Both the position numbers and the translations under genes were made by a program. A stretch of 64,000 bases of DNA from Halotalea alkalilenta (GTDB lineage: Bacteria; Pseudomonadota; Gammaproteobacteria; Pseudomonadales; Halomonadaceae), in the NCBI RefSeq assembly GCF_001648175.1, contig NZ_CP015243.1, forward strand, positions 2,604,001 to 2,668,000, given 5' to 3'. Below, one piece after another: positions 26,580 to 38,068 of the stretch. Every line of letters begins with the position of its first letter. Position 1 is the stretch's first letter. The notes below the pieces were generated by a model. The model worked only from the letters and a program-made list of their open reading frames with translations. It was not told where the DNA came from and did not search any database.

Positions 26580-26639
26580 GAGGAATGCTTCTCGGCGCGC
26601 CGCGCATCGTCCCGTGCGCATGGCAGAGCGTGGTTATCG

Positions 26640-26826
26640 TCCCAAGGCCGGTCTCCGGGCTGACGAGGTGGTGAGATGGCTCACCCGCGCCATGCGCCTT
26701 CCCGTCGGCCTTGACGCTCGACAGTGGCTTCGCATGGAGCACTCGATCACCGTTGCGGGGACAGCAGCGAATTCACATCGCTTTCCCGATTATCCTCGCG
26801 AGCTTGCAGGCGAGGCACCTTGGATC
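26640..26826 (-). promoter_or_regulatory. Cobalamin (adenosylcobalamin-type) riboswitch
   Basis: Reading leftward, the RNA shows the B12 hallmarks in order: AGGTGCC near 26815-26821, AATCGGGAA near 26785-26793, GATGTGAATTCGCTGCTG, CCCCGCAAC (the B12 box core) near 26752-26760, GCCACTG around 26724-26730, GGCGCGGGTGA, and the closing GTCAGCCCGGAGACCGGCC near 26645-26663. It would repress the chelatase-cobO-cobB-cobE operon when cobalamin is plentiful. About 190 nt separate it from the start codon. Confidence 0.92.
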
Positions 26827-26832
26827 GGACCT

Positions 26833-26862
26833 ATCCTAGGGTGGCGCATCCGAGCGCGTCAA
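26833..26862 (-). promoter_or_regulatory. Sigma-70-type promoter for the riboswitch transcript
   Basis: On the leftward strand a -35 TTGACG (26857-26862) and a -10 TAGGAT (26833-26838) are 18 bp apart; transcription would start near 26826, right at the 5' edge of the riboswitch. Confidence 0.6.
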
Positions 26863-29970: not shown

Positions 29971-30899
29971 CCACCCTGGCGGCGCTGCTGCTTGGCTGTC
30001 TGCTCGACCGCTTGTGCGGCGAACCGCTGCGCTGGCATCCGCTGATCGGCCTGGGTCGTTGGATCGGCCTGGTCGAGGCGCGCGCGCATGGCGAGCGCCA
30101 TGCGCGTGCCAGGGGCCTGCTTGCCTGGGTGCTGGTGGTGGCGGGCCCTGTGGCGGTGGCGGTAGTGCTCCAGGGCGTGCTGAATGGAACGCTGCTCTAT
30201 GTGCTGGTGGCGGCGCTGGTGGTCTATCTGTCGATCGGTTGGCACAGCCTGATCGAGCATGCCGGCCAAGTGGCCGAGCCGCTGCGCCATGGCGAACTCG
30301 ATCAGGCGCGTGGGGCGCTCGCGATGATCGTTAGTCGCGACACCGCCGAACTCGACGAGACCGGCATCGCTACCGCAGCTACCGAGTCAGTGCTCGAGAA
30401 CGGCAGCGATGCGATCTACGCGGCGCTTTTCTGGTTCGCACTCCTGGGGTTGCCGGGCGTGGTGCTGTATCGCTGCGCCAATACTCTGGACGCGATGTGG
30501 GGCTACAAGAATCCTCGCTACCGCCAGTTTGGCTGGGCCGCCGCACGAATCGATGACCTGCTCAACTGGATTCCGGCGCGTCTCACCGTATTCGCCTATG
30601 CCTGTGCGAGCGGCAGTGCGAGCGCCGCACGGCTCGCCCTCGACTGCGCCTGGCGCCAGGGGCGTCGCTGGAAGAGCCCGAATGCGGGGCCGGTGATGGC
30701 GGCGGGCGCGGGCGCGCTCGGGCTGCTTCTAGGTGGGCCGAGCCGCTATCACGGCGTGCTTCAGGAGCGCGGCGACCTTGGCCAAGGTCGCACCGCCAAA
30801 GCCGCCGACATCCTGCGCGCGTGCCGTCTGATCGATCGCGCGCTGATCTTTTGGCTGGTGCTGCTCAGCGCCGTATTGCTGTTCGCCAGAGCTTACTGA
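29967..30899 (+). CDS. cbiB: Adenosylcobinamide-phosphate synthase CbiB
   Basis: 310-aa inner-membrane protein (CbiB/CobD) that attaches aminopropanol (phosphate) to adenosylcobyric acid. MTTLAALLLGCLLDRLCGEP is the typical start, with RWHPLIGLGRWI, IVSRDTAELDETGIATAATESVLENG and CANTLDAMWGYKNPRYRQFG further on. GGAGGAGGG precedes the ATG at 29967; the frame opens earlier (29871) without support. Followed 14 bp later by bluB. Confidence 0.95.
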   Translation: MTTLAALLLGCLLDRLCGEPLRWHPLIGLGRWIGLVEARAHGERHARARGLLAWVLVVAGPVAVAVVLQGVLNGTLLYVLVAALVVYLSIGWHSLIEHAGQVAEPLRHGELDQARGALAMIVSRDTAELDETGIATAATESVLENGSDAIYAALFWFALLGLPGVVLYRCANTLDAMWGYKNPRYRQFGWAAARIDDLLNWIPARLTVFAYACASGSASAARLALDCAWRQGRRWKSPNAGPVMAAGAGALGLLLGGPSRYHGVLQERGDLGQGRTAKAADILRACRLIDRALIFWLVLLSAVLLFARAY

Positions 30900-30913
30900 C
30901 CAGGAGAATGCCG

Positions 30914-31570
30914 ATGGAGTTTGGTTTCGACCCAGCCGAACGTCGCGGTGTGTACCGAGCGATCGAGGAGCGGCGCGATATGCGTCACTTTCTTTCCACA
31001 CCGATCGATGAAGCGGTGCTGACACGGCTGATCAATGCGGCCCATCTCGCGCCCAGCGTCGGCTACATGCAGCCTTGGCGTTTCGTGAGGGTCCGCGATG
31101 CCCAGCGCCGCGCCGCGCTGGCGGCGCTGGTCGACCGCGAGCGTGAGGCGACCGCCGAGGCGCTTGGCGAACGCGGTGCCGAGTTCATGCGGCTCAAGGT
31201 CGAAGGCATCAGAGAGTGCGCCGAGGTGCTGGTGGTCGCGCTCGGGTCCGGTCGCGAGCGCTACGTATTCGGCCGGCGCACGCTGCCGCAGATGGATCTC
31301 GCGTCTGCCAGCTGCGCGATTCAGAACCTTTGGCTTGCCGCGCGCGCAGAGGGGCTCGGCATGGGCTGGGTATCGCTGTTCGAGCCGTGCGCCGTGCGTG
31401 ATGTGATCCAGGCTCCTGCGGGAGTCGAGCCGATCGCGATCCTCTGCCTTGGCCATGTCGAGCGCTTCTATCCCGGGCCGATGCTCGAGCTCGAGGGATG
31501 GGACCGACGTCGTCCGCTGGATGAAGTGGTGATGGAGGATCGTTGGGACGAAATCGACGCGAGTCGGTGA
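30914..31570 (+). CDS. bluB: 5,6-dimethylbenzimidazole synthase
   Basis: 218-aa flavin-destructase of the nitroreductase fold; it makes DMB, the lower ligand of B12, from FMNH2 using oxygen, so it implies aerobic synthesis. Features: YRAIEERRDMRHFLSTPID, AHLAPSVGYMQPWRF, and GLGMGWVSLFEP. Two ATGs lie 6 nt apart; 30914 has AGGAG at 7-nt spacing and is chosen over 30908. Last gene of the cobT operon. Confidence 0.94.
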   Translation: MEFGFDPAERRGVYRAIEERRDMRHFLSTPIDEAVLTRLINAAHLAPSVGYMQPWRFVRVRDAQRRAALAALVDREREATAEALGERGAEFMRLKVEGIRECAEVLVVALGSGRERYVFGRRTLPQMDLASASCAIQNLWLAARAEGLGMGWVSLFEPCAVRDVIQAPAGVEPIAILCLGHVERFYPGPMLELEGWDRRRPLDEVVMEDRWDEIDASR

Positions 31571-34749: not shown

Positions 34750-35103
34750 CTATTGAGTCACGCAAGACCTGACCACGCCGATGAGTCCGAAGTCGTCCCC
34801 ATAGCGCTGCCTCAATAGCAGAATGCTCTTGCCTCGGGCCTCCGGCAGCGACCTGGCGATCGTCGCGATCGAATAGACCTTGCGCGGGTCTCCGGAATGG
34901 CGGACGTACTCGCAGGTGTACTGGTGCGCGCGTAGCGACACCGAGTGCTGGAGGCGATAAGCGGGCCAGCACAGCACCACCGTGCAGAACTCCCAGAGCG
35001 CGGCCCGCTGGACGCGGCCGGCGAAAGTCCAGGCCGAGGCGTGCAGCAGCCCGGCGAACAGATAGGCAAGGACCAGGAGGGCGACGAGCGAGGGTAGAAG
35101 CAT
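34750..35103 (-). CDS. Hypothetical membrane-anchored protein
   Basis: 117-aa protein with an N-terminal membrane helix (MLLPSLVALLVLAYLFAGLL) and a second hydrophobic patch (LWEFCTVVLCWPAYRL). The C-terminal half is soluble and basic. No strong ribosome binding site at 35103, and an earlier ATG at 35166 is possible. No family recognised. Convergent with the acidic small protein. Confidence 0.5.
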   Translation of the reverse strand: MLLPSLVALLVLAYLFAGLLHASAWTFAGRVQRAALWEFCTVVLCWPAYRLQHSVSLRAHQYTCEYVRHSGDPRKVYSIATIARSLPEARGKSILLLRQRYGDDFGLIGVVRSCVTQ

Positions 35104-35339
35104 CGGGGGCCGCCGGTTCGAAACGTTGAAGCGCTCGACGTTAGGCACCTTTGGAGCGCATTTCAAGCATTAGATCGCCGCCATCGACGATTACTCAGCC
35201 ATCGGCTCGACCACCGCTGGAGCGCTCGGGTCACTTTATCTTGATAAGAAAATCTAATGACTGGATCTGTGGATCATTTTTTACGATAAAGGCCGTGTCC
35301 AGTACCGCTTTACACCAGTTTCAATCTATACAACTCGAT

Positions 35340-35593
35340 GACCGGCCTCTTACAGTGGTTACAGATGAGGCGAAGGATGCTGAAAGGGCATCAAGGACGA
35401 TGCCAGGGAATCTGGTTCAGGCCAACGAGCATACCGTGGAAAGGGAATCCCCTTCGCCTCATCGGTTTAAAGATTCAATCGTCTGCAGGATTGAAATCGT
35501 CAATTTCATCCCCTGTGAAGGAATCGACGATGCGGCAAGGATGCCGATGAAGCAGTCGTATCACCCAGACCGCCCTTTTACAGGGCGGTTTTT
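35340..35593 (+). ncRNA. Candidate CsrB/RsmZ-family regulatory sRNA
   Basis: A non-coding stretch with eight GGA motifs (35375, 35395, 35407, 35438, 35444, 35488, 35520, 35539). Several sit in hairpin loops: AAGGAC (stem 35388-35392 with 35399-35403), GGAAT (35403-35406 with 35412-35415) and AAGGAT (about 35533-35536 with 35542-35545). A perfect 13-bp helix (35364-35376 with 35451-35463) closes a multibranched domain, and an intrinsic terminator ends it. This is the layout of sRNAs that sequester CsrA/RsmA. The 5' end is approximate. The alternative is a metE leader, but the terminator lies 172 bp before metE. Nothing else is seen in 35104-35339. Confidence 0.72.
35569..35593 (+). terminator. 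Intrinsic terminator of the candidate sRNA
   Basis: An 8-bp stem (35569-35576 with 35582-35589), 5-nt loop, and a T run to 35593. Confidence 0.88.
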
Positions 35594-35764
35594 CTTTATC
35601 ACCAACCGATCCCCCGGTAGGACGCTGGATACCGAGTACCGGCAGCACCTCGACGCCGAGTCCGGATGATGAATTTAGTTCAACTGCATCTCCCATTAGT
35701 TGCGTTTGATTGATGATCATCCGCTCGCCATGCTGGTCGGCTCAACCTTCAGCGGGAGTCGGCG

Positions 35765-38068
35765 ATGACCATTTCTCACACCTTGGGGTTTCCGCGCATC
35801 GGGCGCGATCGCGAGTTGAAGCGCGCCCTGGAGCGCTATTGGCGCGCAGAGTGCTCCGAGGATGAGCTGCGTGAGACCGGCAAGGCGCTGCGCGCAAGCC
35901 ACTGGCGGATCCAGGCGCAGGCCGGAATCGAACTGCTGCCGGTGGGAGATTTCGCCTGGTACGACCAGGTGCTCACCCATACCCTGATGGTCGGTGCGGT
36001 ACCGCCGCGGTTTCGTCACGCAGACGACGGGCTCGGTCTGGATACGCTGTTCGCCATGGGGCGGGGCCTGGTGCGCACCGAATGCGGCTGCGCCGGCGAC
36101 GGCGCCCAGGCGCAGGAAATGACCAAGTGGTTCGACACCAATTACCACTATCTGGTGCCGGAGCTCGAGGCCGAGCAGCGCTTCCACCTGGGCTGGCATC
36201 AGCTGTTCGAGGAGGTCGAGGAGGCCATCGCATTGGGTCATCGGGTCAAGCCGGTGCTGCTTGGCCCCCTGACCTATCTGTGGCTGAGCAAATGCGGCGG
36301 TCGCGAGTTCGACAAGCTGGCTCTGCTCGATCGCCTGCTGCCGGTCTATCACGAGATTTTCACAAGGCTTGCCGGGCTTGGCGTCGACTGGGTGCAGATC
36401 GACGAGCCGGCGCTGGTGCTGGATCTGCCCGATGAATGGCGCCAGGCCTATCGCAGCGCCTACCACATGCTGCGCCAACGAGATGTGAAGCTGCTCCTCA
36501 CTACCTATTTCGGCCCACTAGAGGACAATCTCGAACTGGCCGCGGGGCTGCCGGTGGATGGCCTCCATCTCGATCTGGTTCGCGGCGATGGCCAGCTCGA
36601 CCAGCTGCTCTCGTCGGCTGCCTTCGACGGCGATAAGGTGCTCTCGCTCGGCGTGGTCGACGGGCGCAACGTATGGCGCTGCGATCTGGATCGCGCGCTC
36701 GAGCAGCTCGCACGCGCGCGCCGCGTGCTTAATGATCGGCTCTGGGTCGCGCCTTCTTGCTCGCTGCTCCACGTTCCAGTGGATCTCGAGCGCGAAACCG
36801 GGCTCGACGATGAGCTGCGCCAATGGCTCGCCTTCGCGATCCAGAAGTGCGCTGAAGTGGCCCTTTTGACCCGCGCGGCGCGAGGGGAGGAGAGCGACGA
36901 AGTCGAACTCGCCCTGCGCGAGAGTCGCGCGGTGCAATCGGCACGCAGTGTTTCCCGGCGCATCCACCGTGCCGAGGTCAAAGCGCGAGTCGAAGGCATA
37001 CGCGATGCCCAGGCCCAGAGAAGCGCTCCCTTCGCGCAGCGCATCGAGGCCCAGCGCCGCAAACTGGCACTGCCAAAGCTTCCGACCACGACGATCGGAT
37101 CGTTCCCGCAGACCAGCGAAGTAAGGCGCACGCGCTCGGCCTACCGGCAGGGCCGGCTCGATGAGGCCGACTACCTGCGCGCGATGCGCGATGAGATCGG
37201 CAAGGTCGTTGCCTTCCAGGAACGAGTCGGCCTCGATGTGCTGGTACACGGCGAGCCCGAGCGCAACGATATGGTCGAGTACTTCGCCGAACAGCTCGAA
37301 GGCTACCTGATCACCCGCTTCGGCTGGGTGCAGAGCTACGGCTCGCGCTGCGTCAAGCCGGCGATCATCTATGGCGACATCACCCGGCCCGCGCCGATGA
37401 CCGTCGATTGGATCAGCTATGCGCAAAGCCTGAGCAAAAAGCCGATGAAGGGCATGCTGACCGGCCCGGTGACCATGCTGGCATGGTCCTTCCCGCGTGA
37501 GGACGTCTGCCGTGAAACCCAGGCGCAGCAGCTCGCCCTGGCGCTGCGCGACGAGGTCTGCGACCTGGAAGCGGCCGGCATCGATATCATCCAGATCGAC
37601 GAAGCGGCCTTTCGTGAAATCCTGCCGCTGCGCCGGCGCGACTGGCAGCATTACCTCGACTGGGCGGTCAAGGCTTTCCGGATTGCCAGCAGCGGGGTGA
37701 AGGACTCGACGCAGATTCACACCCACATGTGCTACAGCGAGTTCAACCAGATCATCGAAGCGATCGCGGCGATGGACGCCGACGTGATCACTATCGAGAC
37801 TTCCCGTTCGCAGATGGAGCTGCTGCGCGCCTTCGAGGCGTTCGAGTACCCCAATCAGATCGGACCCGGCGTCTACGACATCCACTCGCCGCGCGTGCCG
37901 AGCGTGGCGGAGATGGTCGAGCTGCTCGAGAAGGCGGCGGTGGTGCTGCCGGTCGAGCGGCTGTGGGTCAACCCCGACTGCGGACTGAAGACCCGCGGCT
38001 GGCCGGAAACCGAAGCGGCGCTTGTAAACATGGTGGATGCGGCGAGATCCGTCCGACGTATCCTTTAG
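35765..38068 (+). CDS. metE: Cobalamin-independent methionine synthase
   Basis: 767-aa cytosolic zinc enzyme transferring methyl from methyl-tetrahydropteroyltriglutamate to homocysteine. N-terminal domain begins [24 protein letters not shown]; the catalytic C-terminal domain has Zn ligands H654, C656 (HTHMCYSEF) and C739 ([11 protein letters not shown]). GGGAG-type site precedes the ATG. No cobalamin riboswitch precedes it, though such control is common for metE in B12 makers. Convergent with tctA. Confidence 0.96.

Follow-up and report, generated by a model that had tools for sequence, protein, structure and literature searches.

A candidate lineage-specific CsrA-binding RNA beside metE in a genus seemingly without GacA

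Among the standard global circuits of Gammaproteobacteria is the GacS/GacA-RNA-CsrA cascade. GacA is the usual switch for the RNAs of this circuit, and the GacA box has the motif TGTAAG-N6-CTTACA. The RNAs with which we compared the present locus are RsmZ, RsmY and RsmX of Pseudomonas and CsrB and CsrC of enterics. Common to these and to the candidate are an RNA-like intergenic stretch, a terminator-like end, several ANGGA motifs and a hairpin with an ANGGAN loop, and the genome of the candidate also has a CsrA gene (one copy, 91 bits). In contrast to them, the candidate has neither an Rfam match nor a GacA box, and a GacA orthologue was not found in its genome; it has fewer exposed GGAs, a domain conserved letter by letter, and a long-range helix that encloses its first five GGAs. 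SELEX has yielded the consensus RUACARGGAUGU, and the ANGGAN hexaloop is the loop type in RsmE-RNA structures (PMC7652899). RNAs that regulate RsmA have been predicted in species without Gac (PMC5568370), and the candidate resembles these, by description, in being a CsrA/RsmA-antagonist RNA proposed where the Gac system was not found; the main text of that paper names neither Halomonas nor Chromohalobacter. A review lists Halomonas anticariensis with GacS-GacA and gives the RNA partner as 'Unknown' (PMC7366521), and a preprint models a Halomonas CsrA, with no Halomonas RNA named in the passages considered (PMC12889724). No Rsm-type or CsrA-regulating RNA of Halomonas or Chromohalobacter is named in the titles or abstract starts of the matching literature.

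The candidate lies in a stretch of 64 kb of DNA that was analysed as a whole and is called the window here. The features of the locus are collected in Table 1. We take the -10-like element of the promoter-like stretch to resemble a stationary-phase (sigma-S) -10, and a sigma-70 scan returned no plus-strand promoter at 35306..35336. Folding, a check proposed in a preliminary description of this DNA, gave -94 kcal/mol for the candidate RNA (z -3.17), which is clearly better than shuffles and was equalled by 1 of 200 of them. The perfect 13-bp long-range helix and the intrinsic terminator claimed in that description were both recovered. Since 0.5 terminator-like sites are expected in shuffles and one was found in the 701 bases scanned, the presence of the hairpin at 35567-35591 proves little by itself.

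Table 1. Features of the candidate RNA and its promoter-like region, in window coordinates.
Feature	Position	Strand	Remarks
Proposed sRNA	35338..35595	+	length about 258 nt, with the start deduced from the position of the -10-like element
Promoter-like stretch	35306..35336	+	TCTATACA at 35325-35332 as -10-like element; no good -35
13-bp long-range helix, 5' arm	35364..35376	+	perfect complement of 35451-35463; identical in the sister genome (G001)
13-bp long-range helix, 3' arm	35451..35463	+	pairs with 35364-35376
Hairpin GGCATC-AAGGAC-GATGCC	35387..35404	+	ANGGAN hexaloop, 6-bp stem; best CsrA-type site
Competing hairpin GATGCT-GAAAG-GGCATC	35376..35392	+	minimum-energy fold; excludes the 35387-35404 hairpin (shared strand 35387-35392)
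Stretch missing in sister species (32 nt)	35484..35515	+	from alignment with the sister locus (L002); contains GGA 35488
Hairpin CGGCA-AGGA-TGCCG, AGGA tetraloop	35533..35546	+	GGA unpaired probability 0.93-0.96; within identical block 35522-35565
Terminator-like hairpin and T tail	35567..35595	+	hairpin 35567-35591; kept in G001, loop letters changed

All eight GGA motifs reported within 170 nt were located, spanning 35375-35541 (at 35375, 35395, 35407, 35438, 35444, 35488, 35520 and 35539). Their number is not above what the composition gives (mean 7.3, p 0.45 when the 259 nt were shuffled 2,000 times) and was for this reason rejected as evidence. The CsrA core ANGGA, by the same kind of shuffling, is in excess, with 6 observed against a mean of 1.8 (p 0.004). 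Six ANGGA per 170 nt is the maximum among 12,766 windows on both strands of the 64 kb and is reached here only, and none of 14,198 windows from 25 other stretches of the same genome contains at least six. Of the properties by which membership of the CsrB/RsmZ type is judged, multiple ANGGA motifs above chance are therefore present in the candidate RNA. The hairpin at 35387-35404 is, in addition, the sole ANGGAN loop on a stem of at least 6 bp among the 289 ANGGAN sites on both strands of the window. Exposure of the GGAs, a further such property, is found for part of them: according to the fold probabilities, two of the eight are clearly unpaired in all three bases, namely 35395 (0.66-0.96) and 35539 (0.93-0.96), and 35407 is intermediate (0.45-0.93). 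The GGA at 35375 lies inside the long helix, 35520 is paired, 35488 has two of its three bases paired, and the GGs of 35438 and 35444 are mostly paired. The earlier statement that several GGAs sit exposed in short hairpin loops is thus overstated, five of the eight being wholly or mostly paired. The AAGGAC hexaloop itself belongs to a near-isoenergetic alternative fold in which its hairpin competes with the minimum-energy hairpin at 35376-35392; when the hexaloop is imposed, the domain folds at -36.8 instead of -37.8, a loss of about 1 kcal/mol.

Conservation was read from one other genome of the same genus (G001, with G000 denoting the genome of the window and L002 the G001 locus). From the promoter-like element, which forms its beginning, to the end of the long helix, a run of 159 nt (35306-35464) is identical in G001, and 127 of these nucleotides fall within the proposed RNA. 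A second block of 44 nt (35522-35565) is likewise identical, against a background of 88% identity over the 946-nt alignment. Six of the eight GGAs are conserved, those missing being 35488, in the 32-nt gap, and 35520, just after it. As a record of GGA conservation with drift elsewhere, this comes from one relative only, in which nearly all of the surroundings of the GGAs are kept too. Because the two species have identical domains, a covariation test is impossible.

The preliminary description had assigned the RNA to the Gac/Rsm type, with exactly the layout of CsrB and RsmX/Y/Z. No match to CsrB, CsrC or RsmX/Y/Z reaches the Rfam gathering score anywhere in the window, and none of these families is among the five Rfam matches at E<=10 in 35150-35770, so that the Rfam check of the CsrB/RsmX/RsmY/RsmZ models came out negative even at that threshold. 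In a search of the own genome with stricter filters, RF00166 and RF00018 likewise gave no match at the candidate. Membership of the CsrB/RsmZ families is not supported, and the statement on layout was too strong, given that few GGAs lie in loops and that domain 1 is conserved base for base. The candidate is also narrowly distributed: blastn finds it in 2 of 58 relatives, both of its own genus, and no second match in its own genome is better than E 0.28. A mobile or viral source was rejected, since viral contigs contain no exact match of the candidate's 22-base core and plasmids and phages no match at E<=1e-5.

On the side of regulatory input, no GacA box with at most 3 mismatches of 12 occurs in 35001-35800, which bears out the remark that no clear box lies upstream. 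A scan of the whole genome returned 116 sites per strand at up to 2 mismatches and 253 for the reversed control, and is therefore uninformative. The best match in the own genome to the UvrY/SirA/GacA model NF007018 scores 104 bits against a cut-off of 280, and at E<=1e-40 no GacA/UvrY was found in either genome of the genus. At the same threshold a match is present in 42 of 58 relatives and in 27 of the 35 other genomes of the family (G002-G036), 19 of the 27 lying above the curated cut-off and the other 8 at 241-278 bits; the family members without a match are G008, G010, G014, G016, G017, G018, G031 and G036. Given that neither an Rfam Csr/Rsm match nor a GacA box turned up, and that neither of the two genomes of the genus gave a GacA/UvrY orthologue, the assignment to a Gac/Rsm type does not hold for its Gac part, with GacA as the component examined; the candidate may still bind CsrA.

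The core hairpin of the candidate recurs in other genera. The gapped pattern CATC-N(1-2)-GGACGATG-N(1-2)-CAGG occurs in 30 of 275 genomes of the genus and family, and the reversed pattern in none of the 275. Besides the candidate and its sister, the 30 pattern loci comprise 3 that are coding-like and 25 Rsm-like RNAs, in which the pattern forms a loop hairpin. We built a covariance model, R1, from the 25 RNA loci (L105-L128 and L131), leaving out L102-L104, coding-like by eye, and L129 and L130, the candidate and its sister; one further pattern match had no locus. R1 RNAs run GGCAAGGGACACTGCC...GGCATCGGGACGATGCCCAGGGAGGA...terminator and were cut at lengths of 125-155 nt; they contain linkers as well as several hairpins with GGA. 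The two R1-type loci scanned against Rfam (L111 and L152) gave no match at gathering score. With a threshold of E<=1e-11, R1 has matches in 10 of 38 relatives, two of which (G015 and G020) contributed sequences to the model. In the candidate's own genus its best matches are weak (E 0.064 in G000, 0.015 in G001); in the window search the candidate is absent from the results, the best matches (15.4 bits) lying elsewhere, and with filters off R1 gives fragments only on the candidate, of at most 4.7 bits. Conversely, a model of the candidate's domain 1, R2, when run on 83 sources, recovers the sister, the window and L001 (the copy in the own genome), the remaining matches being the opposite strand of these three (E 0.05) and L054 (E 0.18); among 47 Rsm-type and related loci it finds nothing above 15.6 bits. 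R1 RNAs and the candidate are thus alike in the hairpin CATC-N-GGAC-GATG followed by CAGG; over its full length, the candidate is not matched by R1. Because R1 and R2 fail to match across, common ancestry is unproven and the shared hairpin may be convergent.

We propose, at about an even chance of being right, that the candidate is a lineage-specific CsrA-binding RNA outside Gac control that titrates CsrA. We infer its transcription, the start, CsrA binding, titration and the input signal. The stretch 35338-35595 would be transcribed from its own promoter, starting near 35338 below TCTATACA, and be ended by its own terminator. A small number of ANGGA sites would bind CsrA, namely the hexaloop AAGGAC (35387-35404) and the AGGA loop at 35533-35546, and possibly one to three further sites at GGAs 35407 and 35438-35444, and binding would titrate the protein. 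In this genus it would happen independently of GacA, and probably a different regulator would be in charge, for which a stationary-phase promoter is one guess. We favour a CsrA-titrating RNA because of the ANGGA excess, the unique ANGGAN hexaloop, the fold (z -3.17) and the terminator-like end, because 159 and 44 identical nucleotides are kept beside a broken metE in a genome with one CsrA gene, and because the module CATC-N(1-2)-GGACGATG-N(1-2)-CAGG recurs in Rsm-like RNAs. The proposal is weakened by the lack of an Rfam match, the few exposed GGAs and the two that are not conserved, by the fact that related Rsm-like RNAs do not evolve with whole-domain, base-for-base conservation, and by the presence in the own genome of another GGA-rich stretch, L161 (see below), that changes more as an Rsm RNA would. 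If the proposal is true, a lineage that keeps CsrA, seemingly without GacA, has a conserved candidate CsrA-binding RNA, and the circuit would have been rewired once its input was lost. A more specific version, in which the CsrA-titrating RNA of this GacA-less lineage also acts as a two-state switch, seems unlikely to us. In one state GGCATC (35387-35392) would pair with 35376-35381, leaving AAGGAC in a multiloop; in the other it would pair with 35399-35404 and show AAGGAC as a perfect ANGGAN hexaloop. Since the two folds are about 1 kcal/mol apart, exposure of the best CsrA-type site might be switched, and it would be to preserve the balance of the two folds that the domain is conserved letter by letter.

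If the candidate were instead the leader of metE, an attenuator or riboswitch-like element, its place upstream of that gene on the same strand, with a terminator-like hairpin ahead of it, would be accounted for. In G001, however, the candidate adjoins a metE remnant of residues 628-767 (the last 140 codons), the first 627 codons having been lost, and the RNA is nevertheless kept, so that it outlives that metE copy, the only copy to which the argument applies. A deletion in L002 brings the RNA near the remnant. None of 80 metE loci of other genomes reaches 3 ANGGA per 170 nt in the 500 nt upstream, compared with 5 here by the same measure; the candidate's model finds nothing upstream of these loci, its one weak match (L054, E 0.18) being downstream, and no riboswitch model matches at the candidate. 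We therefore give the leader reading very little credence. The view that the RNA is not part of metE stood up, with its terminator-like end and with the promoter-like element and domain 1 letter-identical beside the mostly deleted G001 gene, and by its sequence 35338-35595 looks like an RNA of its own. A cobalamin or other riboswitch upstream of metE was rejected, the sole riboswitch match of the window being a cobalamin riboswitch at 26629-26837 on the minus strand (112 bits). A bluB gene (5,6-dimethylbenzimidazole synthase) lies at 30821-31570.

The main rival to a CsrA-titrating RNA is a different kind of lineage-specific sRNA, one that acts by base pairing or through its structure. Target pairing or a fixed fold would then constrain the rigid domain 1 and the second conserved block, and the GGAs would be incidental; we hold this to be possible, at a clear minority share of the probability. 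It would explain why 159 and 44 nt are unchanged where the 946-nt surroundings differ by about 12%, why only two GGAs are clearly exposed, and why the linkers are conserved like the GGAs, unlike those of the Rsm-like RNAs of related genera. We compared 57 pairs of R1 loci, all with flanks that exceed 84% identity across more than 500 nt. In the 145-nt RNA stretch of these pairs, identical runs reach at most 64 nt and are mostly 15-40 nt long. The candidate's 127 transcribed identical nucleotides stand apart from these runs, with background identity measured on different flanks. R1-type RNAs drift between their motifs, whereas domain 1 of the candidate is conserved base for base, and an RNA in which each letter is conserved is suggestive of a role beyond that of a sponge. 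Left to be explained otherwise by this rival are the ANGGA excess and the unique ANGGAN hexaloop. The own genome also holds L161 (G000:C1:3701573-3701680, minus strand; L160 in G001), a stretch rich in GGA that seems to be intergenic and has a strong hairpin and a T-rich end. Between L161 and L160, 6 of 7 GGAs are kept at aligned places while the letters around them change, which is closer to the mode of evolution expected of an Rsm RNA; as a whole L161 is 91% identical, no more conserved than its surroundings, and matches R1 weakly. L161 may be an Rsm-type RNA, and of the two it may be the one better suited as a CsrA sponge. That the candidate is a gene for a small protein or an RNA of dual function, with AAGGA at 35537 as ribosome-binding site and a 40-codon frame from the ATG at 35547, is to our mind highly improbable. 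The first codons are, by eye, identical in both species, but beyond them the differences alter amino acids and the frame crosses the terminator-like hairpin (both by eye), and identity at every position of domain 1 together with a 32-nt deletion within the RNA is unlike coding constraint.

The neighbours of the R1 family are often trmJ-, groEL- and ilvE-like (names by eye from translations). In the candidate's genus the ilvE-like protein of L111 finds no relatives closer than 32-33%, so the syntenic place of an R1-type RNA was not found there, and the flanking proteins of R1/Rsm-type loci that were tested have no match in the window save two weak partial ones of one L091 frame, far from the candidate. 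Of 25 genomes of the genus and family (G000-G024), 8 lack a GacA match at E<=1e-40 and 17 possess one, and all 10 genomes with strong R1 matches are among the 17 (chance about 0.006, calculated by hand for independent genomes, which they are not). If the genera searched are halomonads, as we take them to be, with Halomonadaceae as the family of the window, the R1 family is a direct candidate for the RNA partner of GacS/GacA in Halomonas anticariensis. Repeats of the form GTCA-N7-GTCA (11-bp period), which resemble the Pho-box consensus, occur 60-260 nt before the core hairpin in 19 of the 25 R1 loci. In 500 mononucleotide shuffles the mean is 0.04 loci and the maximum 1, the R1 loci being related and not independent, and the N7 spacing occurs 26 times, with none of the other spacings between 3 and 15 occurring at all. 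These upstream sequences suggest a phosphate (PhoB) input into the Csr system; the term 'Pho box' is absent among the literature matches listed. Two further GGA-rich RNAs were seen. An RsmZ-like one in a relative (L093:1553-1699) scores 38.8 with the PhrS model, whose gathering score is 37, and may have been assigned to the wrong family. The other (L099/L101, in G043), which resembles CsrB, is very rich in GGA and has numerous motifs of the CAGGA type; it scores 55.3 and 52 bits with the CsrB model, whose gathering score is 71.
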